DNA from: Dysosmobacter sp.
Lineage (GTDB): Bacteria; Bacillota; Clostridia; Oscillospirales; Oscillospiraceae
NCBI GenBank assembly: GCA_022778785.1
Contig: JALFSO010000014.1
Coordinates: 1 to 45,356, forward strand
Reading direction: 5' to 3'
DNA length: 45,356 bases
The position numbers were made by a program, and so were the translations under genes. The notes beneath the pieces are model-generated. The model had not been told where the DNA came from. It did not search any database and saw only the letters and a list, made by a program, of their open reading frames with translations. Positions 11,223-45,048 of this stretch are shown here, piece after piece (the stretch's first letter is position 1; each line of letters opens with the position of its first letter).

Positions 11223-11223
11223 C

Positions 11224-12629: not shown

Positions 12630-12649
12630 CAGGGATATATGCCCCAATT

Positions 12650-12702: not shown

Positions 12703-12781
12703 TTCCCATATCCTTGCGGTTTGAGGGTGCTTGCAGGATAATTAGCTCAGAAGAAGAACGGCGCAAAGGAGTTGAGGATAT

Positions 12782-13395: not shown

Positions 13396-13463
13396 AACAA
13401 TGTTATGAACTTTACTTTTGCGCTAATATCGGATATAATGTTAGTACGAAAGGAAGTGAGACC

Positions 13464-14057: not shown

Positions 14058-14905
14058 TAAAGACAGCCAGACAGCTGAAGGACCTGATTCGGAACCTGGC
14101 AAAGAAAAATGCCGCAGACGCCCAGGTCCTTCTGCGGAACTATATGATGGAGCGGTTTCTGGAGCGGATCTCCCTGTCAGAATACCGGGACAAATTCATT
14201 CTGAAAGGCGGTATGCTGGTGGCGGCCATGGTGGGGCTGGACGCCCGTTCTACCATGGACCTGGATGCGACCGTCAGAGGAACGAATGTCAATGTGGAAG
14301 ACATTGAGAATCTGATTGCGGCCATTGTCACAGTCCCCTTGGATGATGGCGTGACATTCCAGCTGAAAAGCATTTCGGAAATCATGGATGAAGCGGAGTA
14401 TCCGGGAATCCGGGTCAGCATGACCGCAACCTTTGACGGAGTCGTAACCCCGCTGAAGATCGACATTTCCACCGGAGATGCCATTACTCCGAAGGAAGTG
14501 CGGTACAGTTTTAAGCTGATGCTGGAGGATCGCTCTATTGAAATTTGGGCCTACAATCTGGAAACCGTTCTGGCGGAGAAGCTGGAGACCATCATCACAC
14601 GGGCCACCACCAATACCCGCATGAGGGATTTCTATGATATTTATGTTCTGGTCCAGCTTCACGGCTGCACCCTGAATCCCCAGGTCCTCCATGACGCTCT
14701 GCTGGCTACCTCCCGCAAGCGCGGCACAGAGAGCCATCTTGCGGAAGCCGGAGAAGTGTTCGATGAAGTGGGGAGCAGTGCGGTCATGCAGAAACTTTGG
14801 GAGGCATACCGAAAGAAATTCTCCTATGCGTCCGATGTGGAATGGCCCATGGTCATGGAAGCGGTTCGCGGACTGTTCCGGCTTTGTGAGGAAGGCGGAG
14901 CATGA
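14054..14905 (+). CDS. abiEii: AbiEii/AbiGii nucleotidyltransferase toxin
   Basis: The 283-residue protein has the nucleotidyltransferase core of AbiEii toxins: FILKGGMLVAAMVG (the GG loop) followed by DARSTMDLDATVRG with the acidic metal-binding pair (DLD). The next acidic strand is LKIDISTGD, and ETVLAEKLETIITRA with RMRDFYDIYVL is the family's conserved C-terminal part. Family toxins transfer nucleotides to RNA acceptors such as tRNA and arrest growth, giving phage abortive infection or element stabilization. Length and motifs look intact. It overlaps abiEi by four bases at its start and the next small gene by four bases at its end. Confidence 0.92.
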   Translation: MIKTARQLKDLIRNLAKKNAADAQVLLRNYMMERFLERISLSEYRDKFILKGGMLVAAMVGLDARSTMDLDATVRGTNVNVEDIENLIAAIVTVPLDDGVTFQLKSISEIMDEAEYPGIRVSMTATFDGVVTPLKIDISTGDAITPKEVRYSFKLMLEDRSIEIWAYNLETVLAEKLETIITRATTNTRMRDFYDIYVLVQLHGCTLNPQVLHDALLATSRKRGTESHLAEAGEVFDEVGSSAVMQKLWEAYRKKFSYASDVEWPMVMEAVRGLFRLCEEGGA

Positions 14906-15237
14906 AAAAGAGAGGACACTACTGCAAAGTTTGCGGCGAGTACAAAGCCAACGAAAAGTTTACCGGGAAAGGCCATGCGGCACACATCTGTAAAGCCTGT
15001 GCTTCCCTTCCACCGGAGAAAAAGGCAGAGCAGATGACGATCAACCTGCTGATGAATCTGCCCTGGCGGCTGTCAAAAGAGCAGCTTTCCTGGCTGAAAA
15101 ACCGCATGAAGGATAAGCGCCCGGAAGTGTGTGCGCTGGCGAAGGAACAGTATGAGATGAGATTCCCACCACGGGATTTACAGGAAGCCGAGGACGATTT
15201 GGATTTCCTGGTTGATGAAAAATTTGATATAGAGTGA
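14902..15237 (+). CDS. Zinc-ribbon protein coupled to AbiEii
   Basis: The 111-residue protein starts with CKVCGEYKANEKFTGKGHAAHICKACASLPPEKK, a four-cysteine ribbon with a basic middle that could bind zinc and nucleic acid. The rest is helical (RLSKEQLSWLKNRM, LAKEQYEMRF) and ends in an acidic tail (EAEDDLDFLVDE). Its ATG overlaps the toxin stop by four bases, so it is co-translated with the AbiE pair and is followed by a terminator. I do not know a named family. It may be an accessory part of the toxin-antitoxin system or an element gene captured into the same operon. Confidence 0.72.
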   Translation: MKKRGHYCKVCGEYKANEKFTGKGHAAHICKACASLPPEKKAEQMTINLLMNLPWRLSKEQLSWLKNRMKDKRPEVCALAKEQYEMRFPPRDLQEAEDDLDFLVDEKFDIE

Positions 15238-15240
15238 TAG

Positions 15241-15272
15241 AAACGGTCTGCACCACGCAGGCCGTTTTTTTT
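15241..15272 (+). terminator. Rho-independent terminator after the AbiE operon
   Basis: AACGGTCTGC pairs with GCAGGCCGTT around a short ACCAC loop and is followed by eight T. It closes the AbiEi-AbiEii-zinc-ribbon transcript and precedes the relaxase ribosome binding site AAGGGAGGG. Confidence 0.85.
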
Positions 15273-15289
15273 GAAGGGAGGGAAACATT

Positions 15290-16699
15290 ATGGCAACCAC
15301 ACGCATTATGCCGCTGCATATCGGCAAGGGACGGACCGAGAGCCGTGCCATTAGCGAGATTATCGACTATGTGGCCAATCCGCAAAAGACCGATCACGGC
15401 AGGCTTATCACCGGCTATGAGTGTGATAGCCGTGTAGCCGACGCCGAGTTTATGCTGGCAAAGCGTCAGTATATCGCCGCCACCGGACGGGTTCGGGGCG
15501 CCGATGATGTGATCGCCTACCATGTCCGCCAATCTTTCTGCCCTGGTGAGATCACGCCGGAGGAAGCGAACCGGCTGGGCGTGGAGTTTGCCAAGCGGTT
15601 CACCAAGGGCAAACACGCCTTTATCGTTTGTACCCACATTGACAAGGCCCATGTCCATAATCATATCATTTGGAGTTCGGTCAACCTGGACTGTGACCGG
15701 AAGTTCCGTAATTTTTGGGGCAGCACAAAAGCTGTCCGGCATCTGAGCGACACCATCTGCATTGAGAACGGACTGTCCATTGTCGAAAACCCAAGACCCC
15801 ACGGCAAAAGTTACGACCAATGGCTGGGCGATCAGGCGAAGCCCTCCCATCGGGAGTTGCTCCGTGCTGCTATTGATAACGCCCTGGCACAAAAGCCTGC
15901 TGACCTGGACGAGCTGTTGAAGCTGCTCCGGGAATCCGGCTGCGAAGTATCCAAGCGCGGCAAATCCTACCGTTTGAAGCTCCCCGGCTGGGGCAAAGTG
16001 TCCCGCCTAGATAGCCTGGGCGATAGCTACACCCTGGAGGACCTACTGGCTGTCCTCGCCGGTCAAAAGGAGCATACACCCCGTCAGAAGCCGGTCAAGC
16101 AAGCAGATCCGCCGAAGGTCAATCTGCTGGTTGACATTCAGGCAAAGCTCCAGGCCGGAAAAGGTGCCGGGTATGTACGGTGGGCCAAGGTCTTTAATCT
16201 GAAACAGATGGCACAGACCGTGAATTATCTCACGGAGCATAACCTGCTGGAGTATGCGGTGCTGGAAGAAAAGGCTGCGGCGGCCACGGCCCACCATAAT
16301 GAGCTATCCGCAAAAATCAAGGCAGCGGAGAAACGCATGGCGGAGATCGCCGTCCTGCGAACCCATATTATCAACTATGCCAAGACCCGCGAGACCTATG
16401 TGGCCTATCGGCAGGCTGGTTACTCCAAGAAATTTCGCCAGGAACACGAGGAAGAAATCCTGCTCCATCAGGCGGCAAAAAATGCCTTTGATGATATGGG
16501 TGTCAAGAAGCTGCCCAAAGTTAGGGAACTGCAAGCTGAATATGCTCAGCTGCTGGAGGAAAAGAAAAAAACCTATGCCGAGTACCGCCGCTCCCGTGAG
16601 GAAATGCGGGAGCTGCTGGCAGCAAAGGCCAATGTGGATCGGCTCATGAGCATGGAGGAAGAAAAACAGGAAGATAAAGACCACGAGCATGGCCGATAA
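15290..16699 (+). CDS. MobP-type relaxase (mobilization nuclease)
   Basis: This 469-residue protein carries the relaxase domain in its first half. Near the N-terminus it has AISEIIDYVANPQKT, which contains the candidate catalytic tyrosine. The metal-binding three-histidine motif sits in HIDKAHVHNHIIWSS. The second half (about residues 310-460) is a long charged coiled coil (EEKAAAATAHHNELSAKIKAAEKRM, YAQLLEEKKKTYAEYRRSREEM). Such relaxases nick oriT, stay covalently bound to the 5' end, and lead the strand through a type IV secretion channel, helped by MobC. It starts at ATG 15290 behind GAAGGGAGGGAAAC. No secretion genes are in this window, so they lie to the left or are supplied in trans. 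Confidence 0.92.
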   Translation: MATTRIMPLHIGKGRTESRAISEIIDYVANPQKTDHGRLITGYECDSRVADAEFMLAKRQYIAATGRVRGADDVIAYHVRQSFCPGEITPEEANRLGVEFAKRFTKGKHAFIVCTHIDKAHVHNHIIWSSVNLDCDRKFRNFWGSTKAVRHLSDTICIENGLSIVENPRPHGKSYDQWLGDQAKPSHRELLRAAIDNALAQKPADLDELLKLLRESGCEVSKRGKSYRLKLPGWGKVSRLDSLGDSYTLEDLLAVLAGQKEHTPRQKPVKQADPPKVNLLVDIQAKLQAGKGAGYVRWAKVFNLKQMAQTVNYLTEHNLLEYAVLEEKAAAATAHHNELSAKIKAAEKRMAEIAVLRTHIINYAKTRETYVAYRQAGYSKKFRQEHEEEILLHQAAKNAFDDMGVKKLPKVRELQAEYAQLLEEKKKTYAEYRRSREEMRELLAAKANVDRLMSMEEEKQEDKDHEHGR

Positions 16700-31812: not shown

Positions 31813-31841
31813 TTGACAGCACCCTTGGAACGGTGTATCCT
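31813..31841 (+). promoter_or_regulatory. Promoter of the cobalamin-riboswitch locus
   Basis: TTGACA (31813-31818) and TATCCT (31836-31841) are 17 bases apart. The start site near 31848 lies about 40 bases before the riboswitch. The transcript would cover the riboswitch, three hairpins and then the SLH/ECF genes. Confidence 0.75.
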
Positions 31842-31884
31842 ACAAAAAAGGAAGGAAATCCCTTCCGGACAATCGAATCATGCT

Positions 31885-32140
31885 CCGGCTTTTGTGGCAG
31901 ATGCGCGACCCCGTCCCGGCGGCGGGACACGCATTCTTGTTCGGCTGAACAAGGGAACCAGGTCAGAACCCTGGACACGGCGGGGACCAGCTGCGGACAG
32001 CCATCCCGCTGTGCTGTAATCATGGAGCGTGCCCTTTTTCCGCGAAAGCGGGTCACTGGCTGCGGCAGCGGCTGGGAAGGCGAGGGGCAGGCGCTGGCGC
32101 GTGTGCGCCTGAACATGTGAGTCAGAAGACCTACAAAGAG
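31885..32140 (+). ncRNA. Cobalamin (vitamin B12) riboswitch
   Basis: The core elements occur in order: AAGGGAACCAGGT-CAGAA-CCCTGGAC (31950-31975), a CCCGCTGTGCTGTAAT block (32004-32020, in place of CCCGCCACTGTAA), GGTCACTGG (32051-32059), CTGGGAAGGCGAGGGG (32072-32087), and the closing GAGTCAGAAGACCTAC (32119-32134), a near-exact B12 box. CTTTTGTGG near 31888 can pair with CCTACAAAG to close P1. The CGGGGA...TCCCG segment holds an extra hairpin (CAGCTGC region). Boundaries are approximate. B12 binding normally turns such genes off. Confidence 0.88.
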
Positions 32141-32143
32141 AGA

Positions 32144-32174
32144 GGGACCTCACCGGGAGTGGGGTGTCCTTTTT
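32144..32174 (+). terminator. Riboswitch expression-platform terminator
   Basis: Directly after the B12 box, GGGACCTCAC pairs with GTGGGGTGTCC around CGGGA and runs into five T. Its 5' side is adjacent to the riboswitch P1 strand, the expected position for ligand-controlled termination. Confidence 0.75.
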
Positions 32175-32190
32175 GCGCCAGTTTTACGAA

Positions 32191-32263
32191 AGCGGCGGTA
32201 TTTTGAATACTGCCGCTGATTTTGTCATGGACAAAAGCGGATGCGGAAGCGTCCGCTTTTTTA
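32191..32263 (+). terminator. Two further terminator-like hairpins before the SLH gene
   Basis: AGCGGCGGTATT-TTGA-ATACTGCCGCT (32191-32217) is followed by GATTTTG. AAAAGCGGA-10 bases-TCCGCTTTT (32233-32260) is followed by more T. Either could stop transcription; with the preceding hairpin they give three barriers between riboswitch and start codon. Confidence 0.65.
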
Positions 32264-32323
32264 TTTGGAGGACAGAAGACACCGTAATTTCTGTTCCGGA
32301 TGATTCGGCAAGGGGGAACACTG

Positions 32324-35300
32324 ATGAAAAAACGAATCGCATCGCTGCTGCTGGCCTGTGTCCTGACGCTGGGCCTGCTGCCTATGGAGGTCCTGGCCCG
32401 TGAGACGGACACCGCCGTGGTGTACCTGACGGTCAGCGTCCGGGGCGTCCTAGCGTCGGACAGGGACGGCCAGGCCATGGCCCGCCGCCCGGTGACCGTC
32501 ACCGATCTGGACGGCGACGGCAAGCTGACCTATGACGAGGCCCTGACGGCGGCCCACGCCGCGTACTGCGCCGCCGGGACGGAGGGTTACAGCGCCCCCG
32601 GCGGTTACGTCAGCCGTCTCTGGGGAGAGGACAGCTACAACACGCTGTTCTTCCTGAATGACACCGGCCTGACAGGCGGCGTCACGGATGCTACCGTCCG
32701 GGACGGCGACGCGCTGACGGCCTCCGTCAACCTGGACGACACCTACTACGCCGACTGGTACGCCTTCTTTGACCGGGGGACGGCGGAGGTCTCCGTGGGG
32801 ACGGCCCTCACCCTGACCCTGAAGGGCCATCTGGGCATGGCCTGGAGCGAGGAGGACCTGAAGGACGTGCCTCTCAGCGGCGTCGCGGCGGGCGTCTGGG
32901 AGGACGGGGCCTTCGTCCCGCTGGACGGCGCGGTCACCGGTGAGGACGGCCGGGTGACGCTATCCTTTGACCGGCCGGGCACCTATTATGTCACCGCCTC
33001 CGGCACCGTCCCTGACGAGGTTGTGGTGGACTGGTCCACCTATGAGACGGCCACCGTCCCGTGCCCCATCATCGCCCCGGTCTGCGTGGTGATGGTGACG
33101 GAGGAGCAGAGCGGCGGCATGAGCGACAGCGAGGCCGTGGCCGCCATCTACGGGGAGTTCTCCGACAGCACCAAAAACTACGGCAATGCCGCCAAAACGC
33201 CCCTGGTGTTCCCCCTGACCTACAACGGCGAGACGTACACCAACGTCATCGACTATCTGAAGGCCTGGGCGAAGGACGAGACCGGCCGGGAGGTGACGGT
33301 GAATTACACCCCCAGCCTGTCTGAGACCACCTATACGGAGTGGAACAGCGGCAGCCCCGTGACCCGGTCCTACACCGGCATGGACGAGGCGGGGAACATC
33401 ATCCAGGACTACTTCAAGGACAACAATCCTAAGCTGCTGAACTGCCTGAAAAACGTGACCTTCACCGTGGGAGGCGAGACGTCTTCCACCATTGCCAGCC
33501 TCTACATCCGGGTGACGTCCCTCCAGCGGACGCCCCGGGAGATCGTGGATTATGTGGCGGAGAACCTGTGCTTCGCCCGCATCCGGAACGGCAGCGCGTC
33601 TCCGGACGCTGTCACCCGGCCGTTGGGCGCAGTCTCCGGCAGCACCATGTCCCTGCCCACCTCCAGTGAGCTGTACGGCACCGCCAGCGCCTCCGTGGCC
33701 TGGACGCTGAAGCACGTCAGCGGCAAGTCGGACGCCCTGACCCTCAGCGGCAGCAAGACTGCCGTCTCCCGGCCCAACGTGGGTGAGAAGGACGCGGTGT
33801 TTGACCTCATCGCAACTGTCACCGCCAAGGCGGACAGCGGGGTGCCCCGCACCGTCACCCACCGGCTGACGGTCCCCGCCTTTGCGGGCGTCCCGGTGAC
33901 CGTCCGGGTGCCGGAGGGGGCCTCCCTGTCTCTCACCGACGGGTACTACGGAAACGCGGCGGTAGACGGACAGTACATCATCCAGACGGACGGCGCCCCG
34001 GCGGGATGGCAGGACTATATCTGCACCCTCCACACCAATGCCGATGGCGGTGCCCAGTCCTTCGGATACACGGTGAGCAAGCCGGGATTCCTGACGAAGA
34101 CCGGCACCTTCACCGTCACGGGAGCGGAGACGGAGCCGGTGGTCATCGACCTGACGGCCTCCTCCGACAGCGACACCAGGCTGGCGTCTCTGGAGATCCT
34201 GACCCCCGCCGTCACCGGCTTCGACTTTGACCCGGAGGTGACGGAGTATACCGTGGAGGTCAGCGGCGCCCAGTTCGTGAAGCTGACGGCCGCGGCGGCC
34301 ACGGAGGGGGCGTCCGTGAAGCTGACTTCCTATTATAAAAGCGTTGCCAACGCCAACAGCGGCGTTCTGACCACCACTGGAGCCATCCTCTCCGCCTCCA
34401 GCACCGCCTGCTATCTCCCGGATGGGGCAGACACCGTGTCCCACATCGCCGTTACCGTCACGGCCCCCGCGGGCAGCATCCAGGTGGAGCCGGCCCGGAC
34501 GTACACCATCCACGTGAAAAAGACGGCCTCCACCGGCCCGCTGACGGGCCTGACCCTGACGGCCTCGTCCTCCGGCACCGGTACGAAGAACACCATCAGC
34601 GCCGGGGACCCGGTGCCCGCCGAGGAGACCCTGACGCCCGCCTTCGCGGCAGGCGACCGGACGGGGAGCTACACCTACACCGTGAACTACTGGCGGGACC
34701 GGCTCACCGTGAAGCCCACCGCCGCAGGCTGCGCCATCACCGTCAACGGCGGGACTGTGGACAGCGGCAAGACCTCCGGGGAGATCCCTCTGGAGGTGGG
34801 AGACAACACCGTGGCCATCCGGGTCACGAAGGACGGCGAGACGGTGGACTATACCGTCACCGTCCATCGGAAGGCGGAGCTGCGTCTGACGGACGTGACG
34901 CTGGACGAGGGCACCCTGAACGCCGCCCTGCCGGAGAACGGCAGCGGCTGGACCGGCTCCTGCGGCTTTGCTTACAGCGCGGACACCGTCCATGTGACGT
35001 TCCATACCAATCTGACCGATGAGGAGGAAGAAGCGGTCACCGTTCTGGCGGTGCTGAACGGCGTGACCTGTGAGGGCCGGGCCGGGGAGCCCATGGCCCT
35101 GCCGGTGGGAGACGCGGAAAAGGCCATGGTGACGGTGTGGCTGTGCCGTACCGCGGCCGACGGCACGGCGGAGGGCCAGAAGTACGTCATCGGCCTGTAC
35201 CGCAGGGCTTCCGATTCCCCCAGCGCCGTGGAATCCTACCTCCCGGCGCCGGGCCAGTTCGTGAACCTGCCGTCCTGGCAGGAGGCGGGGAAGACCCTCA

Positions 35301-37819
35301 CCGGCTCCGCCGCCGTGACGCTGGGCACCTTCGGCGGCAGCGTGGTCTACCGGTATGACGAGCCCATCCGCAACGACCCCGCCAATCCCTACGGCGTGGA
35401 CTTCATCGTGGTGGGCAACTGCTTCACCGACAGCGACGGCGAGACCTCCGCCAGCGCGGCGGAGCCCGCCGCGGTCATGGTGTCCCGGGACGGCGAGACC
35501 TGGTATGAGCTGGCGGGCAGCCGGTACTACGAGGCGTCCACCGTCCACGGCGTCACCGTCACCTACACCAACGGGGACACCGCTTTCACAGCGGCGGCGG
35601 ACATCCCTTGGACGGACAGCCTGGGCAATTCCGGCGTCCTGCCCAAAAACAGCTTCCACACCCAGCCCTACTATCCCGACCCGGCGTACTACGGTGCGTA
35701 CCAGACCGGCGCGGGAGCCAACGTCACCTACACGGCGAAGTCGGTGTCCTTCACCGGCAGCCGTCTGGCCTCCGGCGGGTTCTGCGCCTTCGGCTACGCC
35801 GACTGCCACAGCGCCGGGGCCGACGGCGGCAGCGGAGCCGCCAATCCCTACGCCGCGGACCACCAGTGGACCTACAACGGCGACGGCTTCGATCTGGCCT
35901 GGGCGGTGGACGAACACGGCGACCCGGTGACGCTGGACGAAGTCTCCTACATCAAGATCTACAACCCCGTTCTCAGCTACGGCACCACCAGCGGCGAGAT
36001 CTCCCCGGAGATCACCGCCGTGCTGCGGGCGCAGCCCGCCGCCGGAGCCGTGGGCGTCAGCGGCGGCCTGACGGCCCTGTCCGTCAACGGGACGCCGGTG
36101 GAGCTGACGGAGGGCGTCACAGCGTACACCGTGGACGGACAGGGGGCGTCCGTCCTCACCGTCACCCCCACCGCCGCAAACCCGGACGCCAACATCTACG
36201 TGTCCGCCCAGCGGGTGGCCTCCGGCATGGACAGCGCCCCCGTGACGGCGGTGGGCAAGCTGCGGATCATCGTCCAGGAGGAGGACCGGGAGCCGGTCAT
36301 CTACATCCTGAACGTCGCCAACACGGCGACCCCGGAGGACGACGCGGACCTGACGGGTCTGACCCTGACTCCCGGCGGTGTCACCGCTGTCCCCGACGCG
36401 TCGGACACGGTGGAGTTCTCCGTGGACAGCGCCGTCTCCGCCGTGCGGCTGACGCCTGCGGCCAGCGACGGCGCGGCGATGACCCTCACCGGCGGCGCTC
36501 TGGAGACCGCCGTGACCCTGACCTCCGGCACGGCCAGCGAGCCTCTGGCGCTGTCCGCCGGGAAGAACCACTTCCTGCTGATCGTCACCTCCGCCAGCGG
36601 CGAGCGGACGAAGACCTACAGTGTCGTCATCCGTCGGGCGGCGTCCGGCGGCTCCTCCGGCGGCACGGAGGACGGCACCATCCGTGTCACCTTCTCCCTC
36701 ACCGGCGACACCGTCCACTATGACCCGGACACCGGGGAGTACACCGGAAAGCACACCGATCCCACCTGGATCGCCCGCACCACCGTCCAGGTGCCGGAGG
36801 ATTCCACGGTGCAGTACGTCACCGAGCTGATGCTGAACAACGCCGGACTGGACTACACCGCCAACACCACCTACGTCTCGGAGATCAACGGTCTGGCGGA
36901 GCTGGACAACGGACCCAACTCCGGCTGGATGTACCGCCACAACGGCACCATCGCCGATGAGGGCTGGGACAGCCGGACGCTGCGCAGCGGCGACACCGTC
37001 CAGTGGTTCTACACCGATGACTACACGAAGGAGACGGGCTATCAGGGCAGCTGGGACGCGGTCAACAGCGGCTCCGTCCCGGCCGGAACGGCCGCTGTCA
37101 GCGACGTCATGGATCTGATCCGGGCCATCGGCACGGTGAATGCGGACAGCGGCCCCGCCATTCAGACCGCCCGTGCGGCCTATGACCGGCTCACCGACGC
37201 ACAAAAGCAGCAGGTCACCAACTACAGCGTCCTCACCGGCGCCGAGGCGGCTTGGGCGGCCCTCACCGGCGGCCTGCCCTTCACGGATGTGGAGGGCCAC
37301 TGGGCGCTGGACGCCATCCGCACCGTGTACGGGGCGGGCCTGATGAAGGGCACCGCCGCCGATACCTTCTCCCCGGAGGGCGCGGTCAGCCGGGGAATGA
37401 TCGTCACCATCCTGTGGCGGCTGGAGGGAAGTCCCGCGCCGGAGAGCGCCGCACCCTTTACCGATGTGGCAGCGGAGTCCTACTGCGCGGACGCCGCGGC
37501 CTGGGCCTCCGCCAGCGGCATCGCCGCCGGTTACGGCGACGGCGCCTTCCGCCCCAACGCCCCCGTCACCCGGGAGGAGCTGGCGGCGCTGCTGTACCGC
37601 TACGCCGGCTGGAAGCAGGCCGACGTCACCGCCCGGGGCGACCTCAGCATCTTCGCGGATGAGGCCAGCGTGGGGGCCTGGTCCCGTGACGCCATGGCCT
37701 GGGCCTGCGGCACGGGTCTCCTCACCGGCACGGAGCGGAACACCCTGGAGCCGAAAAGCGGCGCCACCCGGGCCCAGACGGCGGTGATCCTGACCCGCTG
37801 GCTGGTGGCCGCCGGATAA
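32324..37819 (+). CDS. Giant SLH surface protein with EF-hand loop and DUF4430 domain
   Basis: The 1831-residue secreted protein starts at ATG 32324 behind AAGGGGGA. Its signal peptide is KKRIASLLLACVLTLGLLP, cut near residue 29. A canonical EF-hand loop lies at residues 61-72 (D61-x-D63-x-D65-G-K-L-T-Y-D-E72). Next come several beta-sandwich/cadherin-like repeats (LTGLTLTASSSG, LTDVTLDEGTL, LTGLTLTPGGV blocks). A DUF4430 domain at about 1453-1578 has a YVTELMLNNAGLDY segment, GPNSGWMYRHNGTIADEGWDSRTL and GDTVQWFYTDDY. Three SLH repeats (1651-1831) anchor it to the wall polymer. DUF4430 is related to the C-terminal domain of transcobalamin/intrinsic factor. Under a B12 riboswitch, a role in surface corrinoid capture is the best inference. 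Confidence 0.88.
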   Translation: MKKRIASLLLACVLTLGLLPMEVLARETDTAVVYLTVSVRGVLASDRDGQAMARRPVTVTDLDGDGKLTYDEALTAAHAAYCAAGTEGYSAPGGYVSRLWGEDSYNTLFFLNDTGLTGGVTDATVRDGDALTASVNLDDTYYADWYAFFDRGTAEVSVGTALTLTLKGHLGMAWSEEDLKDVPLSGVAAGVWEDGAFVPLDGAVTGEDGRVTLSFDRPGTYYVTASGTVPDEVVVDWSTYETATVPCPIIAPVCVVMVTEEQSGGMSDSEAVAAIYGEFSDSTKNYGNAAKTPLVFPLTYNGETYTNVIDYLKAWAKDETGREVTVNYTPSLSETTYTEWNSGSPVTRSYTGMDEAGNIIQDYFKDNNPKLLNCLKNVTFTVGGETSSTIASLYIRVTSLQRTPREIVDYVAENLCFARIRNGSASPDAVTRPLGAVSGSTMSLPTSSELYGTASASVAWTLKHVSGKSDALTLSGSKTAVSRPNVGEKDAVFDLIATVTAKADSGVPRTVTHRLTVPAFAGVPVTVRVPEGASLSLTDGYYGNAAVDGQYIIQTDGAPAGWQDYICTLHTNADGGAQSFGYTVSKPGFLTKTGTFTVTGAETEPVVIDLTASSDSDTRLASLEILTPAVTGFDFDPEVTEYTVEVSGAQFVKLTAAAATEGASVKLTSYYKSVANANSGVLTTTGAILSASSTACYLPDGADTVSHIAVTVTAPAGSIQVEPARTYTIHVKKTASTGPLTGLTLTASSSGTGTKNTISAGDPVPAEETLTPAFAAGDRTGSYTYTVNYWRDRLTVKPTAAGCAITVNGGTVDSGKTSGEIPLEVGDNTVAIRVTKDGETVDYTVTVHRKAELRLTDVTLDEGTLNAALPENGSGWTGSCGFAYSADTVHVTFHTNLTDEEEEAVTVLAVLNGVTCEGRAGEPMALPVGDAEKAMVTVWLCRTAADGTAEGQKYVIGLYRRASDSPSAVESYLPAPGQFVNLPSWQEAGKTLTGSAAVTLGTFGGSVVYRYDEPIRNDPANPYGVDFIVVGNCFTDSDGETSASAAEPAAVMVSRDGETWYELAGSRYYEASTVHGVTVTYTNGDTAFTAAADIPWTDSLGNSGVLPKNSFHTQPYYPDPAYYGAYQTGAGANVTYTAKSVSFTGSRLASGGFCAFGYADCHSAGADGGSGAANPYAADHQWTYNGDGFDLAWAVDEHGDPVTLDEVSYIKIYNPVLSYGTTSGEISPEITAVLRAQPAAGAVGVSGGLTALSVNGTPVELTEGVTAYTVDGQGASVLTVTPTAANPDANIYVSAQRVASGMDSAPVTAVGKLRIIVQEEDREPVIYILNVANTATPEDDADLTGLTLTPGGVTAVPDASDTVEFSVDSAVSAVRLTPAASDGAAMTLTGGALETAVTLTSGTASEPLALSAGKNHFLLIVTSASGERTKTYSVVIRRAASGGSSGGTEDGTIRVTFSLTGDTVHYDPDTGEYTGKHTDPTWIARTTVQVPEDSTVQYVTELMLNNAGLDYTANTTYVSEINGLAELDNGPNSGWMYRHNGTIADEGWDSRTLRSGDTVQWFYTDDYTKETGYQGSWDAVNSGSVPAGTAAVSDVMDLIRAIGTVNADSGPAIQTARAAYDRLTDAQKQQVTNYSVLTGAEAAWAALTGGLPFTDVEGHWALDAIRTVYGAGLMKGTAADTFSPEGAVSRGMIVTILWRLEGSPAPESAAPFTDVAAESYCADAAAWASASGIAAGYGDGAFRPNAPVTREELAALLYRYAGWKQADVTARGDLSIFADEASVGAWSRDAMAWACGTGLLTGTERNTLEPKSGATRAQTAVILTRWLVAAG

Positions 37820-37863
37820 CGGCGGAACTATGAACGATACCCGATGAAACGGGGGAGACAGTG

Positions 37864-39498
37864 ATGAACACCATGAGACAACGGGTTGTGGGCCTGCTGC
37901 TGGCACTGACGGTGCTGGCCGGCCTGTGGGTGCCCGCGTCGGCGGCGTCGGAAAGCGCGCTGAATGACGCCGCGGAGCGGGCGGCGGCCTATATGCTGCG
38001 GACCGTGGAGCAGCCCCGGGTGGGCAGCGTGGGCGGCGAGTGGGCCGTCCTGGGCCTGGCCCGCGGCGGCTTCGAGGTGCCCCAGACCTTCTGGGACAGC
38101 TATTACGCGGCGGTGGAGGCGGAGACGGAGGCCTGCAAGGGTGTCCTCCACGAGAAGAAGTACACGGAGTACGCCCGGGTGGCCATCGCCCTGACGGCCA
38201 TCGGCGCAGACCCCACGGATGTGGCGGGCTATGATCTGCTGACGCCCCTGGGGGACTTCGACAAGACCGTCTGGCAGGGCATCAACGGCCCCGTCTGGGC
38301 GCTGCTGGCCCTGGACGCCGGAGACTATGAAATGCCGGTGAATGCCGACGCCAAGACCCGGGCCACTCGGCAGATGTACGTGGAGGAGATCCTGTCCCGT
38401 CAGCTGGACTGCGGCGGCTGGGACCTGACCCATCGGGGCGGCGGCTCTGACGCCGACGCCGACGTCACCGGCATGGCCCTCCAGGCCCTGGCGAAATATC
38501 AGGACCAGACGGCGGTGGGGGACGCGGCGGAGCGGGCGCTGTCCTGGCTCAGCGATGTCCAGGACGATGACGGCGGCTGGTCCAGCGGCGGGACGTCCAA
38601 CGCGGAGAGCACGGCCCAGGTGCTGGTGGCCCTGTGCGAGCTGGGCATCCCCCTGGACGATCCCCGGTTTGTGAAGAACGGCCATTCCGCCCTGGACGGT
38701 CTGCTGGGCTATCAGCAGCCCGACGGCAGCTTCCTCCACACCGGCGGCGGCTCCGGCTCCGGCCAGATGGCCTCGGAGCAGGGCCTGTACGCCCTGGTGG
38801 CCGCACAGCGGGCCCTCCGGGGGGAGAACAGCCTCTACCGCATGGGCGACGCCGCGGTCCGGATCGCGTCCGCCGCCGGAACGGGCCTGCCGGGGAAGCA
38901 CCCGGACGTGCAGGCCCCGGCGGTGACGACCCCCGGCATGACCTTCCCGGACATCGCCGAAGACGGCTGCCGCTCCGCTGCGGAGACGTTGGCGGCGCGG
39001 GGCGTCCTGACGGGCTTTGCCGACGGCACCTTCCGTCCGGAGAGCCACCTGACCCGTGCCCAGTTCGCGGCGGTGACGGTCCGGGCGCTGGGCCTGCCCC
39101 AGCAGACCGCCGGTGGGTTCGCCGACGTGGCCTCCGGCAGCTGGTGCGCCGGTTACGTGGGCGCCGCCCACGCCTACGGCGTCGTCAACGGCAGGACCGA
39201 GACCGTGTTTGATCCCGACGGCACCATCACCCGCCAGGAGGCGGCGGTGATGCTGGCCCGGGCTGCCCGGCTCTGCGGTCTGGACACTGCCCTGACGGAC
39301 GGAGAGGTCCTGAACGCCCTGGCTCCCTTCGGCGACTACCGGACGGTGGGGGACTGGGCGAAGGCCAGCGTGGCCTTCTGCTGCCGGACAGGCCTCTTTG
39401 ACGCGGACGCCCTGAATCTGGAGCCGCACCGGCCCATCACCCGGGGTGAGGCTGCCCAAGCGGTGACGGCCCTGCTGGACGCCGCAAAGCTGCTGTAA
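37864..39498 (+). CDS. Alpha/alpha-toroid (prenyltransferase-repeat-like) SLH protein, intrinsic-factor-like
   Basis: The 544-residue protein starts at ATG 37864 behind GGGGGAGAC. Its signal peptide is RQRVVGLLLALTVLAGLWVPASA. Residues 35-330 are helical-pair repeats with glycine-tryptophan turns: GGEWAVLGLARGGF, LDCGGWDLTH (C183), VQDDDGGWSS (about 232-241) and YQQPDGSFLH (283-292). This is the pattern of terpenoid-synthase/squalene-cyclase-type alpha-alpha barrels. The catalytic DxDD or DCTAE motifs of cyclases are not evident. Intrinsic factor and transcobalamin use the same barrel to bind B12. Three SLH repeats follow (361-544). With the DUF4430 genes on either side, this looks like the barrel half of a split B12-binding module. 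Confidence 0.88.
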   Translation: MNTMRQRVVGLLLALTVLAGLWVPASAASESALNDAAERAAAYMLRTVEQPRVGSVGGEWAVLGLARGGFEVPQTFWDSYYAAVEAETEACKGVLHEKKYTEYARVAIALTAIGADPTDVAGYDLLTPLGDFDKTVWQGINGPVWALLALDAGDYEMPVNADAKTRATRQMYVEEILSRQLDCGGWDLTHRGGGSDADADVTGMALQALAKYQDQTAVGDAAERALSWLSDVQDDDGGWSSGGTSNAESTAQVLVALCELGIPLDDPRFVKNGHSALDGLLGYQQPDGSFLHTGGGSGSGQMASEQGLYALVAAQRALRGENSLYRMGDAAVRIASAAGTGLPGKHPDVQAPAVTTPGMTFPDIAEDGCRSAAETLAARGVLTGFADGTFRPESHLTRAQFAAVTVRALGLPQQTAGGFADVASGSWCAGYVGAAHAYGVVNGRTETVFDPDGTITRQEAAVMLARAARLCGLDTALTDGEVLNALAPFGDYRTVGDWAKASVAFCCRTGLFDADALNLEPHRPITRGEAAQAVTALLDAAKLL

Positions 39499-39516
39499 TG
39501 TAAAGGAGAGAACGCC

Positions 39517-40275
39517 ATGAGACAAAAGCACGGCCTGTGGAAGCTCCTGCTTCCCCTGGGCGTCCTGCTCCTGCTGATCGCCGCCTTCTGCCTGGACGGC
39601 GGCGCTGGCAGACAGGTCCCGGACGCTTCTGCGTCCTCCTCTGCGGTGTCGTCTCCGGCGGAGCCTGCCGCCGCGGAACCGGCGGAGGCGGACCCGGAGC
39701 AGGACCTGACGGAACTTCCGGAGATCCCGGAGGAGCCGGACACGCCGGAATCCCCGGAGGAAGTTCCCGAGACGCCGGAGGATCCCGCTGCCGCCCCGGC
39801 GGCGTCTCCGGCGGCGTCAGCGACCGCCGCACTGTCCGGCGGAACGGCGGACGGCACGTACACCTGCACCATCTCCGTCAGCTGCGCCGCCCTGCTGGAC
39901 AACATGGACCTGTGCGACCCGGAGAAGACGGAGCTGGTGCCCTCCGATGGCTGGCTCCTGCCGCCCACGGAGGTGACGTTCTATGAGGGGGAGAGCGTGT
40001 TCAACGTCCTCCAGCGCACCTGCAAACAGCGGAAGCTCCATATGGAGTACGAGAACACGCCCCTCTACGGCAGCGCCTACATCGAGGGCATCGGGAACCT
40101 GTACGAATTCGACGCCGGAGAGCTGTCCGGCTGGATGTACGCCGTCAACGGCTGGTATCCCAACTACGGGTGCAGCCAGTATCTCCTGGAGGACGGCGAC
40201 GAGATCTGCTGGCGCTACACCTGCGACCTGGGGGCGGACATCGGCGGCGCCGCCGCGGACCAGCGGGGCGCGTAA
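39517..40275 (+). CDS. Membrane-anchored DUF4430 (transcobalamin-like) protein
   Basis: The 252-residue protein starts at ATG 39517 behind AAAGGAGAG. One hydrophobic segment (KLLLPLGVLLLLIAAFC, residues 9-25) acts as signal anchor; AAFC is not a good lipobox. An acidic Pro/Glu/Ala linker (about 27-110) could span the wall. The DUF4430 domain (about 115-245) shows FYEGESVFNVLQRTCKQRKL, YGSAYIEGIGNLYEFDAGELSGWMYAVNGWYPNYG and LEDGDEICWRYTCDLG. It has four cysteines in the domain, unlike the giant protein's version. Position right before the ECF genes suggests it hands substrate to the importer. The family relation to the animal B12-carrier beta domain is established; B12 binding here is inference. 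Confidence 0.88.
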   Translation: MRQKHGLWKLLLPLGVLLLLIAAFCLDGGAGRQVPDASASSSAVSSPAEPAAAEPAEADPEQDLTELPEIPEEPDTPESPEEVPETPEDPAAAPAASPAASATAALSGGTADGTYTCTISVSCAALLDNMDLCDPEKTELVPSDGWLLPPTEVTFYEGESVFNVLQRTCKQRKLHMEYENTPLYGSAYIEGIGNLYEFDAGELSGWMYAVNGWYPNYGCSQYLLEDGDEICWRYTCDLGADIGGAAADQRGA

Positions 40276-40299
40276 GCATACGACGAGAGGAGGGACGTC

Positions 40300-41196
40300 A
40301 TGGAGCGCCGGAACGCCTTTTCCGACTGCCATCCCCTGGTGAATTTCCTGTACTTCGCCCTAGTGCTGCTGTTTACCATGTTTTTTCTCCATCCGGTGTG
40401 TCTGGCGGTGTCCCTGACGTCGGCCCTGCTCTGCGCGGCGGACCTGTACGGCTGGCGGAGAGTGGGACGCCAGCTGCGGTACCTGCTGCCCATGGCCCTG
40501 CTGGCGGCGGTGCTGAATCCGGCCTTCAACCATGAGGGGGCCACCATCCTGACCTATCTGCCCTCCGGGAACCCCCTGACCCTGGAGAGCATCCTGTACG
40601 GACTGGCGGCGTCGGCCATGCTGGCGGCGGCTGTGGCCTGGTTCACCTGCGCGTCGGCGGTGCTGACGTCGGACAAGATGGTGTGGCTCTTCGGGCGGCT
40701 GCTGCCCGCCCTGTCCCTGCTGCTGTCCATGACCCTGCGGTCCGTGCCACGGTTCCAGGCCCGGTTCCGGACGGTGCGGGAGGCCCGGCGGTGCGTGGGA
40801 CGGGACGGCTCCGGCGGGAGCTGGCTCCGGCGGCTGAAAAACACCGCCGCCCAGGTGTCCATTCTGGTGACGTGGTCTCTGGAGAGCGCCGTGGAGACGG
40901 CGGACAGTATGCGCGGCCGGGGCTGGGGCCTGCCGGGCCGCACGTCCTTCTCCATCTACCGGCTGGAGGGCCGGGACCGGACGCTGCTGGTCTGGCTGGC
41001 TTTCTGCGGTGTCTTCATCGCCGCCGGATGGGCGGCGGGTGGCCTGGACTGGCGGTACTATCCCACGGTCCGGGGGACTCTGACCGGCGTGCTGCCCGTT
41101 GGCTTTCAGCTGGTGTATCTGGCCCTTTGCCTGACGCCGGTGATTTTCAATAGGAGGGAGGCCCGCCAATGGACACGTTCACGCTCCGCCACCTGA
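40300..41196 (+). CDS. ECF transporter T component
   Basis: The 298-residue protein has the CbiQ/EcfT fold: an opening DCHPLVNFLYFALVLLFTMFF, several membrane helices, and the two cytoplasmic coupling motifs, seen as FRTVREARRCVGRD and ESADSMRGRGWG-like (VETADSMRGRGWGLPGRTSF). It is the scaffold linking the two ATPases to the substrate-specific S component. It starts behind GAGAGGAGGGACGTC. Its end overlaps the following gene by 28 bases, so the two are co-translated. The last helices after residue 220 are an extension typical of this subgroup. Confidence 0.92.
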   Translation: MERRNAFSDCHPLVNFLYFALVLLFTMFFLHPVCLAVSLTSALLCAADLYGWRRVGRQLRYLLPMALLAAVLNPAFNHEGATILTYLPSGNPLTLESILYGLAASAMLAAAVAWFTCASAVLTSDKMVWLFGRLLPALSLLLSMTLRSVPRFQARFRTVREARRCVGRDGSGGSWLRRLKNTAAQVSILVTWSLESAVETADSMRGRGWGLPGRTSFSIYRLEGRDRTLLVWLAFCGVFIAAGWAAGGLDWRYYPTVRGTLTGVLPVGFQLVYLALCLTPVIFNRREARQWTRSRSAT

Positions 41197-43784
41197 GCTT
41201 CACCTATCCGGGACAGACCCGCCCCGCCCTGTCGGACGTGTCCCTGACCGTGGAGCAGGGGGCCTTTCTGGTGGTGTGCGGCGCCTCCGGCTGCGGTAAG
41301 ACCACCCTTTTGCGGCAGCTGAAGCCGGCCCTGTCCCCCCACGGGCGGCGGGATGGGGAGATCCTGTTCGAGGGCCTTCCCCTGGAGGAACTGGACCGCC
41401 GGGCCGCCGCCGGACGCATCGGCTTCGTCCAACAGTCCCCGGACAGCCAGATCGTCACCGACCGGGTGTGGCATGAGCTGGCCTTCGGACTGGAGAGCCT
41501 GGGGTGGGACACCCCGTTCATCCGCCGCCGGGTGGCGGAGATGGCGGCCTTCTTCGGCATTGAGGACTGGTTCTACCGGGACACGGCGTCATTGTCCGGC
41601 GGTCAGAAGCAACTGCTGAATCTGGCGGCGGTGATGGTGACCCAGCCCGCCGCCCTGATCCTGGACGAGCCCACCGCCCAGCTGGACCCCATCGCGGCGT
41701 CGGACTTCCTGGCCATGCTGGGCAGGATCCACCGGGAGCTGGGCACCACCGTGATCCTGACGGAACATCGTCTGGAGGAGGTGTTTCCCCTGGCCACGGA
41801 GGCGGCGGTGCTGGACCGGGGGCGGCTGATCTGTACCGGCACACCCAGGGAAGCGGGCATGGCCCTGCGGGACCGGGGCCACGCCATGTTTCTGGCCATG
41901 CCCGCCGCCATGCGGGTCTGGGCGGCGGCGGACACGGACGCCCCCTGTCCTGTCACCGTCCGGGAGGGCCGGGACTGGCTGAAGGAGTTCCAATCGGCCC
42001 ATCCCCTGCATCCCGTGCCGGAGACGCCGGAGCCTCCCGCCGGGGAGACGGTGCTGTCCGCCGGGAAGCTGTGGTTCCGGTATGAACAGAACGGCGCGGA
42101 CGTGGTGAAGGGCCTGTCCCTGACGGTGGGGCGGGGCGAACTGCTGGCCCTGCTGGGGGGCAACGGCGCGGGAAAGACCACCGCCCTGAAGCTGCTGAGC
42201 GGCCTGCTAACGCCCCAGCGGGGAGAGGTATGCCGCCATGGGACGATTGCCCTGCTGCCCCAGGACCCCCAGGCGCTGTTCGTGAAGAACACCGTCCGGG
42301 AGGAACTGGCGGAGACGCTGGAGGAGCTGCCACTGACGGACACGGAGCGGGGCGGACGGACGGCCCGCATGGTGCGGCTGTGCCGTCTGGAGGGTTTGCT
42401 GGACCGCCATCCCTACGACCTCTCCGGTGGTGAGCAGCAGCGGACGGCCCTGGCCAAGGTGCTGCTGACGGAGCCGGACCTGCTGCTGCTGGACGAGCCC
42501 ACCAAGGGCCTGGACGCCGCCTTCAAACAGGCGCTGGGGGAGATCTTCCAATCCCTCCGGCGGCAGGGGACGGCTATCCTCATGGTGAGCCATGACGTGG
42601 AGTTCTGCGCCCGGTACGCCGGACGGTGCGCCCTGTTCTTCGACGGCGGCGTCGTGACGGAGGGCCCACCCCGGGACTTCTTCTCCGGCAACAGCTTCTA
42701 CACCACCGCCGCCAATCGCATGGCCCGGCCCCTGCTGCCCCGGGCCGTGACGCCCGAGGACCTGATCCTGGCCTGCGGCGGCGTCCTGCCGCCCACACCG
42801 GACTGTCCGCCGGAAACAGACAGCGCCGAGCCTGCCGCGGCCCCGGAGACGGTGAAGCGTCCGGCGGAAGGACTGCGCCCATGGCGGAAATATCTGGCGG
42901 CGGTCTCCGGACTGGCGGCGCTGGCGGTGCTGCTGCGCACCGCCGCCTCCGGCGGGCTGACGCCGGAGAACGGCCCGTCTGTGGGACAGTACGCCGCCTT
43001 CCTGCTGCCCCTGCTGGTGCTGGCGCTGTGCGTCCGGCGGCCCGCCGCCCCCATGCCGCGGCCGCCTGAAAGAGCGGGGGAACGGCGTCCCTCCCGGCGG
43101 TCCGTTCTGGCGGCGGGCGGGGTCCTGCTGCTGATCCCCCTGACGCTGCTGGCGGGACAAGTCTTATATAATGGCAGAAAATATTACTTTATTGCACTAT
43201 TGATCCTGCTGGAGGCCATGCTGCCATTCTTTCTCCTGTTTGAGGGACGGCGGCCCCGGGCCAGGGAGCTGGCGGTGATGGCGGTGCTGTGCGCCATCGG
43301 CGCGGCGGGCCGGGCGGCGTTTTTCATGCTGCCCCAGTGCAAGCCGGTGATGGCGCTGACCATTCTGACGGGGACGTCCCTAGGCGCCCAGACGGGCTTC
43401 CTGGTGGGAGCCGTCACCATGCTGACCTCCAACATCTTGTTCGGGCAGGGACCCTGGACGCCGTGGCAGATGTTCGCCATGGGCTTCACCGGCTTTCTGG
43501 CGGGGGTGCTGTTCCACCGGGGGCCGCTGCCCCGGAGCCGGGGGGTGCTGTCCGTCTTCGGCGCACTGTCCGCCGTGGTGATCTACGGCGGCATCATGAA
43601 TCCGGCGGCGGCCCTCATGTGGGCCGGGACGCTGGACGGGAAGCTGCTGCTGGCCTACTGTCTCTCCGGCCTGCCCATGGACTGCGTCCAGGCGGCGGCC
43701 ACGGCCCTGTTCCTGTGGTTCGCCGCGGAGCCCATGCTGGAGAAGCTGGACCGGGTGAAGACCAAATACGGCCTGCTGGAATAG
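41169..43784 (+). CDS. ECF ATPase-ATPase-S component fusion, CbrT-like (cobalamin)
   Basis: This 871-residue protein joins three ECF parts. The first ATPase has Walker A GASGCGKTT (K44), signature LSGGQKQ (about 140) and Walker B LILDEPTAQLD (163-173). The second has Walker A GGNGAGKTT (K336), signature LSGGEQQ and LLLLDEPTKGLD. The C-terminal 300 residues are membranous: one or two extra helices, then an S component with AVLCAIGAAGRAAFFMLPQCKPVMALTIL, GFLVGAVTMLTSNILFGQGPWTPWQMFAMGFTGFLAGVLF and SGLPMDCVQAAATALF. This matches CbrT-type S components, which import cobalamin in lactobacilli. S-components are usually separate proteins, so fusion to both ATPases is unusual. It starts at ATG 41169 behind AGGAGGGAGG. 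Confidence 0.9.
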   Translation: MDTFTLRHLSFTYPGQTRPALSDVSLTVEQGAFLVVCGASGCGKTTLLRQLKPALSPHGRRDGEILFEGLPLEELDRRAAAGRIGFVQQSPDSQIVTDRVWHELAFGLESLGWDTPFIRRRVAEMAAFFGIEDWFYRDTASLSGGQKQLLNLAAVMVTQPAALILDEPTAQLDPIAASDFLAMLGRIHRELGTTVILTEHRLEEVFPLATEAAVLDRGRLICTGTPREAGMALRDRGHAMFLAMPAAMRVWAAADTDAPCPVTVREGRDWLKEFQSAHPLHPVPETPEPPAGETVLSAGKLWFRYEQNGADVVKGLSLTVGRGELLALLGGNGAGKTTALKLLSGLLTPQRGEVCRHGTIALLPQDPQALFVKNTVREELAETLEELPLTDTERGGRTARMVRLCRLEGLLDRHPYDLSGGEQQRTALAKVLLTEPDLLLLDEPTKGLDAAFKQALGEIFQSLRRQGTAILMVSHDVEFCARYAGRCALFFDGGVVTEGPPRDFFSGNSFYTTAANRMARPLLPRAVTPEDLILACGGVLPPTPDCPPETDSAEPAAAPETVKRPAEGLRPWRKYLAAVSGLAALAVLLRTAASGGLTPENGPSVGQYAAFLLPLLVLALCVRRPAAPMPRPPERAGERRPSRRSVLAAGGVLLLIPLTLLAGQVLYNGRKYYFIALLILLEAMLPFFLLFEGRRPRARELAVMAVLCAIGAAGRAAFFMLPQCKPVMALTILTGTSLGAQTGFLVGAVTMLTSNILFGQGPWTPWQMFAMGFTGFLAGVLFHRGPLPRSRGVLSVFGALSAVVIYGGIMNPAAALMWAGTLDGKLLLAYCLSGLPMDCVQAAATALFLWFAAEPMLEKLDRVKTKYGLLE

Positions 43785-43805
43785 GCGGGCGCTTCCGCAA
43801 ACAAA

Positions 43806-43836
43806 CTCCGGAGCCGGGGACGGCTCCGGAGCTTTT
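43806..43836 (+). terminator. Terminator of the cobalamin locus
   Basis: CTCCGGAGCCG and CGGCTCCGGAG form a perfect 11-base stem with a GGGA loop, followed by C and four T. It separates the ECF gene from the zinc operon. Confidence 0.88.
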
Positions 43837-43856
43837 CCGCCCACCGGAGATTTTGC

Positions 43857-43904
43857 TTGACTATTCCGCCGGGGCGGCTATAATATGAAAATGATTTTCA
43901 TATT
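43857..43904 (+). promoter_or_regulatory. Promoter with Fur/Zur-type operator
   Basis: TTGACT (43857-43862) and TATAAT (43879-43884) are 16 bases apart. Overlapping the -10 end is a perfect palindrome, AATATGAAAA-TGA-TTTTCATATT (43882-43904). It resembles the TGAAAATNATTTTCA class of Fur-family boxes and sits where a repressor would block transcription of the downstream regulator and zinc-transporter genes. Confidence 0.88.
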
Positions 43905-43922
43905 CAAATTCAGGAGGCATCC

Positions 43923-44348
43923 ATGGCATATTCCACGAAACAGCAGCAGGCGGTGCTGGACTGCCTGTCCCGACGGCGGGAGGGGCCGGTCAGCGCCATC
44001 GAACTGGCGGAGGCTCTGCGCCAGTCCGGCCATCCGGTGGGCCTGGCCACCATTTACCGCCAGCTGGAGAAGCTGGAGCAGACGGGACTGGTCCACAAGG
44101 TCAACACCGGGGAGGGGGCGCTGTACCAGTACTGCGACCACGCCGGAGAGGGGCGGGAGTGTCTGCTGCTCCAGTGCCGGGGCTGCGGCCGCATCCTGCA
44201 TCTGGACTGCACCCATTTAAAGCCCCTGTACGATCATCTGGCGGAGCGGCACCATTTTCACATCGATCCCCGGACCACGGTGTTCACGGGGCTGTGCGAC
44301 GTCTGCGCGAAACAGAGAGAGGAGGGACACGGACATGGAGAACAATGA
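43923..44348 (+). CDS. zur: Fur-family regulator, probably Zur (zinc uptake repressor)
   Basis: The 141-residue protein has the Fur winged helix (STKQQQAVLDCL, ALRQSGHPVGLATIYRQLEKLEQTGLVHKV) and the structural zinc site, with CRGC in LLQCRGCGRILHLDC and CDVC near the C-terminus. The His-rich HHFHIDP gives the metal-sensing region, and a GHGHGEQ tail adds histidines. It is most likely Zur rather than Fur because it overlaps the znuC gene by 14 bases and sits behind its own operator. It would repress zinc import when zinc is sufficient. It starts at ATG 43923 behind CAGGAGG. Fur or PerR identity cannot be fully excluded. Confidence 0.88.
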   Translation: MAYSTKQQQAVLDCLSRRREGPVSAIELAEALRQSGHPVGLATIYRQLEKLEQTGLVHKVNTGEGALYQYCDHAGEGRECLLLQCRGCGRILHLDCTHLKPLYDHLAERHHFHIDPRTTVFTGLCDVCAKQREEGHGHGEQ

Positions 44349-45048
44349 ACTGATCGTCTGCCGGGACGTGTCCCTGGGCTACGAGGGAAAGCCCCTGCTC
44401 CAGCACCTGGACCTGACGGTGCGGGAGGGGGACTACCTCTGCGTGGTGGGAGAGAACGGCTCCGGCAAGTCCACCCTGATGAAGGGCCTGCTGGGATTGC
44501 TGTCCCCCCTGTCCGGCGAGATCGTCCGGGCACCGGAGCTGCGGGACGGGGCCATCGGCTATCTGCCCCAGCAGACCCGGGCACAGAAGGATTTCCCCGC
44601 CACCGTCAGCGAGGTGGTGCTGTCGGGCTTCCTAAGCGCCCGGGGCTGGAAATTTTTCTACACACCGGCTCAGAAATCCCAAGCATTGCAGCACATGGGC
44701 AAGCTGGGCATTCTGGAGCTGAAGGACCGGTGCTACCGGGAGCTGTCCGGCGGCCAGCAGCAGCGGGTGCTGCTGGCCCGGGCTCTGTGTGCGGCAGGGG
44801 ATCTGCTGGTGCTGGATGAACCGGTGACGGGACTGGACCCCGCTGCCGCCGACGACCTGTACCGCACCCTGCGGTATCTCAACCGCACCGAGGGCATGGC
44901 CGTGGTGATGGTGACCCACGACATCCGCAGCGCCCTGCGGGACGCCACCGCCATCCTGCACGCCGGACGGAACCAGTGGTTCCTGGGCACGCCCCGGGAA
45001 TATCTGGCCTCGCCCTACGGAAAACGCTTCGGAGGTGACCTGTCATGA
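44335..45048 (+). CDS. znuC: Zinc ABC transporter ATPase
   Basis: The 237-residue ATPase has Walker A GENGSGKST, Q-loop IGYLPQQT, signature LSGGQQQRVLLARAL, Walker B LLVLDEPVTGLD and switch His in VTHDIRS, the layout of metal-type (Mn/Zn) ABC ATPases. YLPQQTRAQKDFPATVSEVVLSG is characteristic of this cluster. It powers the ZnuB permease, whose start it overlaps by four bases (ATGA). Its start lies inside zur. Manganese specificity is the main alternative; the zur linkage favours zinc. A matching binding protein (ZnuA) is not in the window. Confidence 0.92.
   Translation: MENNELIVCRDVSLGYEGKPLLQHLDLTVREGDYLCVVGENGSGKSTLMKGLLGLLSPLSGEIVRAPELRDGAIGYLPQQTRAQKDFPATVSEVVLSGFLSARGWKFFYTPAQKSQALQHMGKLGILELKDRCYRELSGGQQQRVLLARALCAAGDLLVLDEPVTGLDPAAADDLYRTLRYLNRTEGMAVVMVTHDIRSALRDATAILHAGRNQWFLGTPREYLASPYGKRFGGDLS

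Follow-up and report, generated by a model that had tools for sequence, protein, structure and literature searches.

Animal carriers of vitamin B12 (cobalamin), such as intrinsic factor, transcobalamin and haptocorrin, are soluble proteins that are endocytosed. In bacteria, B12 capture at the cell surface is known in detail for Bacteroides, whose outer membrane carries BtuG and BtuH. BtuG1 has an H domain homologous to BtuH2 (PMC10404256), which binds B12 via the corresponding domain (PMC8941943). The C-terminal part of TCN proteins is DUF4430 (PMC4350170), and the bacterial DUF4430 structure 3u7z was grouped with the beta domains of transcobalamin and intrinsic factor (PMC13385337). Eukaryotic carriers are described as enclosing B12 with two domains and not transferring it onward (PMC13398666). 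An "Additional lipoprotein component of putative cobalamin ECF transporter" (ECF, energy-coupling factor) is known by annotation only from Lacticaseibacillus rhamnosus (PMC9963975); the excerpt of this source also mentions a DUF4430 protein and does not state that it is the same protein. Here we describe a locus of Dysosmobacter sp. (GCA_022778785.1, contig JALFSO010000014.1, positions 1–45,356 of the forward strand; this whole stretch of 45,356 nt is referred to as the window), where a cobalamin riboswitch precedes five genes. Judging from sequence, it is very probably a corrinoid capture-and-import operon built with carrier-like parts and most likely repressed by B12.

The operon occupies positions 31813–43784 of the + strand and is composed of the following features:

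31813–31841, + strand: sigma-70-type promoter-like site (TTGACA, 17, TATCCT), consensus match 10/12; there are 7 sites of this type in the stretch vs 0.9 expected
31921–32152, + strand: cobalamin riboswitch aptamer RF00174, 45.4 bits (gathering threshold 31.5), model positions 1–189
32147–32165, 32191–32217 and 32233–32260, + strand: terminator-like hairpins, likely the expression platform; there are 12 such sites in the stretch vs 4.5 expected
32324–37819, + strand: P0001, predicted secreted SLH protein with Cadherin-like stretches, a BtuH-type domain and DUF4430 (frame open from 32300)
35225–36022, + strand: BtuH-type domain of P0001, residues 976–1241
36800–37015, + strand: DUF4430 of P0001, from Pfam
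37271–37792, + strand: SLH region of P0001, residues 1658–1831, from domain matches
37861–39498, + strand: P0002, predicted secreted toroid-SLH protein (signal-peptide-like start, toroid, three SLH domains)
37981–38853, + strand: alpha/alpha toroid of P0002, residues 41–331, from profile and predicted fold
39517–40275, + strand: P0003, N-terminal membrane anchor, acidic proline-rich linker and DUF4430 (39868–40227), from Pfam and hydrophobicity
40300–41196, + strand: P0004, putative ECF-T component, a weak CbiQ match and conserved neighbour of the S component
41169–43784, + strand: P0005, two ECF ATPases fused to a CbrT-like S component (S at 43095–43778), from Pfam and profile

The riboswitch is complete: the covariance model is matched over its whole length, and the conserved stretches AAGGGAACC, GUCACUGG, GGGAAGG and GAGUCAGAAGACCU are present. 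It is the sole RF00174 match found in the source genome. The terminator-like hairpins are consistent with corrinoid-dependent control of the genes downstream; folding of the leader alone (z -4.39) is not used as support. A cobalamin riboswitch followed by five genes on the same strand is what had been proposed from the letters alone, and every part of this proposal (hereafter the original prediction) was found on the + strand; the riboswitch also passed the covariance-model search that the proposal had set as a test. The start of P0001 is more likely at 32324 than at 32300, because AAGGGGGA stands before that ATG. G+C content is 0.65–0.71 across the operon (window positions 32000–44000) vs 0.45–0.62 in the first 28 kb of the window. 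A genome of the same genus (G082) has neither a DUF4430 nor an RF00174 match, the RF00174 scan there being run with stricter filters.

The import part is formed by P0004 and P0005. Both ABC ATPase matches of P0005 are clear, and its S domain lies slightly above the cut-off of PF07155 (30.4 vs 26.7 bits) and below that of PF12822. A profile of 23 S domains, searched against the PDB, gives 6fnp_A (ECF-CbrT) at 2.6e-14 and the next match at 0.16, which makes CbrT the only significant solved relative. P0004 can be assigned as ECF-T by a weak match (27.8 bits, far under the CbiQ/ECF-T cut-off of 111.8), its position and its hydrophobic profile. P0003 possesses a single N-terminal hydrophobic segment and a Pfam match to DUF4430 at residues 158–235; the DUF4430 matches of both P0001 and P0003 exceed the Pfam cut-off. 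Hence the membrane-anchored DUF4430 protein, the ECF T component and the ATPase-ATPase-S fusion with a CbrT-like S component, all named in the original prediction, were recovered. A classical lipobox was not found in P0003 of the window, and a phmmer search of this protein against the PDB gave nothing. Among P0003-like proteins the N-terminal hydrophobic segment is present in 108/109 and a lipobox, by a loose pattern, in 12/109, so that the conserved feature is membrane attachment, whether through a helix or a lipid. In the source genome (95% complete) CbiD, the one family of the anaerobic corrin pathway that was searched, was not found. PF02310, the family used in the search for B12 enzymes (others, e.g. 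class II ribonucleotide reductase, lie outside this search), has a short MetH-type B12 enzyme as its sole match there. Both results speak in favour of corrinoid import.

The N-terminus of P0001 is signal-peptide-like. Pfam gave nothing for the N-terminal stretch of this protein and found three Cadherin-like stretches, DUF4430 at residues 1501–1572 and three SLH domains. The BtuH-type domain is not recognised in the window copy by any Pfam model; it matches the H domain of BtuG1 (8blw_B, 2.6e-21) and BtuH2 (7biz_A, 6.7e-10). The combination of SLH and DUF4430 had thus been read correctly in the original prediction and the BtuH-type domain overlooked. Such a domain is present in 11/120 relative loci (L034 and L086 represent one stretch), and it occurs together with DUF4430 and SLH in six genes of these loci. 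A riboswitch lies upstream of a gene of the BtuH-DUF4430-SLH type in L047 (55 bases) and L142 (676 bases), and 241 bases upstream of a BtuH-only gene in L117.

The arrangement of the operon is conserved among relatives, which were collected in two sets. The 40 family loci were hand-chosen from strong DUF4430 places, one per genome, with some near contig ends skipped, so that this set is enriched for the cassette and many weaker DUF4430 places lie outside it. The 80 named-record loci, from Flavonifractor, Sporobacter, Paenibacillus, Fusibacter, Pelotomaculum and others, were drawn from at least 518 toroid relatives. Both sets were annotated by custom profiles, and they overlap: eight named loci (L077, L086, L093, L103, L121, L130, L134 and L152) apparently duplicate contigs already present among the family loci, so that three fused chains enter the counts of both sets, and L102 resembles L105. 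Neighbours were counted in loci with a toroid and enough contig room, within distance limits set by the analyst. The alignments comprised 43/45 toroid stretches and the window (A1), 16 sequences and the window (A2), 14/15 fused pieces and 10 toroids (A3), 66/80 orthologues and the window (A4), and every second S stretch (22) and the window (A5).

The cassette typically runs surface protein, toroid, DUF4430, T, ATPases and S. DUF4430 comes after the toroid in 34/36 family and 69/74 named loci; T is found near the toroid in 33/36 family and 49/64 eligible named loci, and S in 32/35 and 40/52, respectively. Among 199 genomes of the phylum, 26 contain the toroid (E up to 1e-20) and 55 the S component; all 26 toroid genomes possess both, within 10 kb on one contig in 23 of them. 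Chance co-location was rejected (hypergeometric 1.3e-17, a figure that treats related genomes as independent). The parts are also joined by natural fusions. Toroid and DUF4430 form one chain in 8/36 family and 20/80 named loci, and in the single-contig 3.7-Mb genome G303 one 737-residue frame (L155, 3616–5826) unites S, toroid and SLH, with ECF-S, toroid and SLH families recognised by Pfam and 6fnp_A matched at 1.8e-11. Co-occurrence across genomes had been suggested as a check in the original prediction; in the family, named and phylum sets the parts are tied by order, co-occurrence and fusions. Together with the CbrT-like S component, these results support its reading of the locus as surface corrinoid capture coupled to ECF import.

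The riboswitch accompanies the cassette as well. The Rfam scan covered 37 family loci (all except L070–L072) and seven of the 80 named loci. RF00174 was found in 12/21, 3/8 and 4/8 family loci, 19/37 in total, and in 19/19 of these a toroid, DUF4430 or SLH gene lies downstream on the same strand within 2.0 kb; the distance to the cassette gene is below 600 bases in 16/19, and the gene nearest to RF00174 shows SLH only in L053, L054 and L055. Among the seven named loci scanned five contain RF00174, and L142 has an extra riboswitch without a cassette gene behind it in the locus. Other Rfam families at threshold in the scanned loci were none except tRNA and tmRNA. RF00174 occurs somewhere in 37/39 genomes (40/80 named loci), in L133 as a copy 0.9 kb upstream of the toroid. 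Chance placement was rejected: about 1.8 riboswitches per genome (approximate, as 117 entries were used vs 114 genomes tallied, with related genomes treated as independent) would put one in less than 2% of 20-kb stretches, vs 19/37 family loci observed.

A different arrangement is seen in L040, where a 1006-residue toroid-DUF4430-DUF4430-SLH protein (7393–10410) stands directly behind a 119-bit cobalamin riboswitch, and ECF-T and S component were not found in this 20-kb locus. From its sequence, this protein is a candidate stand-alone surface carrier.

The fold of the parts was compared with solved structures. A model of a natural toroid-DUF4430 piece from L124 (476 residues, 24-row alignment) has a mean predicted local distance difference test score (pLDDT) of 87.5 and a predicted template modelling score (pTM) of 0.69. 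In Foldseek against the PDB its top match is intrinsic factor (3kq4_A, 2.3e-10), and each of the first 14 chains is intrinsic factor, transcobalamin or haptocorrin. Next come drimenyl diphosphate synthases, from 1.6e-4, and 3u7z, the bacterial DUF4430 structure, appears at 2.2e-2. In this model the fold of each domain is supported, the packing of the toroid with DUF4430 is not. The toroid of the window is confidently modelled (pLDDT 93.3, pTM 0.90). In the window the alpha- and beta-type domains belong to separate genes, not to one chain. The fold match of toroid plus DUF4430 to the B12 carriers, called for in the original prediction, is strong for the fused relative and weak for the window toroid, where it ranks behind terpene cyclases.

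Several observations weigh against the proposed capture-and-import function. In Foldseek the window toroid gives terpene cyclases from 2.7e-5 before transcobalamin at 3.4e-4 (TM-score 0.55). The L124 match covers both domains with a root-mean-square deviation of about 15 angstrom and a low-confidence linker, and the packing is unlike that of the carriers. PF01122, the alpha-domain family of the carriers, has no match in P0002 or in the rest of the window and a single weak one among 44 toroids (7.3e-4). Its matches in 2/24 rows of A3 (best 0.0021) and once in 150 genomes (18.4 bits vs a cut-off of 25, in a 1397-residue frame that also contains the DUF4430 place G103:C305) are not used as proof. 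Of the six ligand contacts of BtuH2, P0001 keeps Gln, Asn and His (3/6) and lacks Tyr510, Trp511 and Trp577, with the numbering offset deduced from agreement at all six letters and a poor alignment of the Tyr-Trp loop; across 12 aligned rows Asn is kept in 12, Gln in 11 and His in 5. No RF00174 was seen in 18/37 family loci, some of them cut by contig ends, the toroid is missing by the custom profile in 4/40, and T and S were not found nearby in 15/64 and 12/52 eligible named loci, respectively.

As the window toroid is nearer to cyclases than to transcobalamin, a toroid by itself does not identify a B12 carrier; DUF4430, and its company with the toroid, does. This property of the toroid, along with the lack of PF01122, would suit corrinoid uptake with the toroid as a scaffold or docking domain and capture left to the BtuH-type and DUF4430 domains. 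We consider such a role doubtful, since the toroid has strongly conserved motifs (47 invariant positions in 67 rows) and shares one chain with DUF4430 in the family and named loci counted above, with both domains aligned to the carriers. Class II terpene cyclases bear a D-x-D-D acid motif. It is incomplete here, reading D-A-D-V-T in P0002 and D-P-D-I-T in the consensus, and assignment of the toroid as a class II cyclase was rejected. The best Pfam match of the toroid is SQHop_cyclase_C (8.4e-10) and its best Foldseek matches are cyclases and GH105-like toroids; even so, an extracellular enzyme of terpene-cyclase or glycosidase type that merely accompanies the operon is extremely improbable given the incomplete motif and the CbrT-like S component alongside in 26/26 genomes, once in the same chain.

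The ligand could also be another tetrapyrrole or a corrinoid precursor (cobinamide, other cobamides, a different cofactor) and not B12 itself. The S domains do show weak NCBIfam matches to folate and riboflavin S components, and CbrT carries cobinamide as well (PMC5997447). This alternative is rather improbable: CbrT stands alone as a match among solved structures, the cobalamin riboswitch and the BtuH-type domain point to cobalamin, and cobinamide, being still a corrinoid, would be compatible with the capture and import of corrinoids preferred here.

For this preferred reading, we infer ligand binding, clasping across two chains, the direction of transfer and the sign of regulation as follows. 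When corrinoid is scarce, the riboswitch would permit transcription. P0001 and P0002 would be secreted and held in the wall by their SLH domains, gathering corrinoid; P0001 would supply a BtuH-type site and DUF4430, and P0002 the toroid as the equivalent of the alpha domain in intrinsic factor and transcobalamin. P0003 would keep the equivalent of the beta domain (DUF4430) at the membrane via its long linker. Together, toroid and DUF4430 probably form the clasp for the corrinoid, as two chains here and as one chain in some relatives. From the membrane half the corrinoid may then reach the CbrT-like S domain of P0005, and import by the P0004–P0005 ECF machine would be driven by ATP.

It is possible, and we propose it tentatively, that the operon encodes a split intrinsic factor, with the alpha half in the wall and the beta half at the membrane, in which opening of the clasp at the membrane releases corrinoid directly into CbrT. 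In that case the bacterial toroid-DUF4430 chains would be prokaryotic relatives of the animal carriers and perhaps their source, and would serve to transfer the ligand instead of being endocytosed. The operon suggests how thick-walled bacteria of the Gram-positive type may obtain scarce B12 from outside. The cassette, which is spread through Bacillota, offers a B12 route across a thick wall that can be tested directly, and candidate relatives of the animal B12 carriers among prokaryotes. No paper describing this combination was found in the open-licence PubMed Central literature as far as its excerpts go, preprints being outside the scope.

Elsewhere in the window, a Fur-family regulator gene and then an ABC ATPase gene nearest to zinc/manganese uptake families (43923–45048) follow the operon; by sequence they are probably a separate metal uptake unit. 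Mobile-element genes lie within 412–16699. They include a MobA/VirD2-type relaxase, DUF3848/DUF3849 and a frame of 1996 residues that matches MutS_I and SNF2-type families; a reverse transcriptase (7119–9044) stands between group II intron RNA matches at 6468–6698 and 9120–9204.

Compared with the Bacteroides BtuH protein and the BtuG1 H domain, P0001 shares a homologous domain, a predicted surface location, a cobalamin riboswitch and half of the ligand contacts; in contrast to these outer-membrane lipoproteins, it has an SLH wall anchor and an attached DUF4430, and an ECF importer takes the place of BtuB and BtuFCD. The L. rhamnosus lipoprotein is likewise assigned, by annotation, to a cobalamin ECF transporter; relative to the excerpt of that source, the toroid, SLH and BtuH-type parts are mentioned only for the window operon (PMC9963975). 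ECF-CbrT of Lactobacillus delbrueckii (PDB 6FNP; PMC5997447) resembles the importer in its homologous S component, two ATPases and T component, whereas here both ATPases and S form one chain with T encoded adjacently, and the surface proteins (DUF4430, toroid, BtuH-type, SLH) lie within the same operon. With intrinsic factor, transcobalamin and haptocorrin the locus shares the DUF4430-type beta domain and, in relatives, single chains with the toroid ahead of DUF4430; in contrast to them, PF01122 has no match here, and the parts in the window are split over two or three proteins anchored in the wall and at the membrane.

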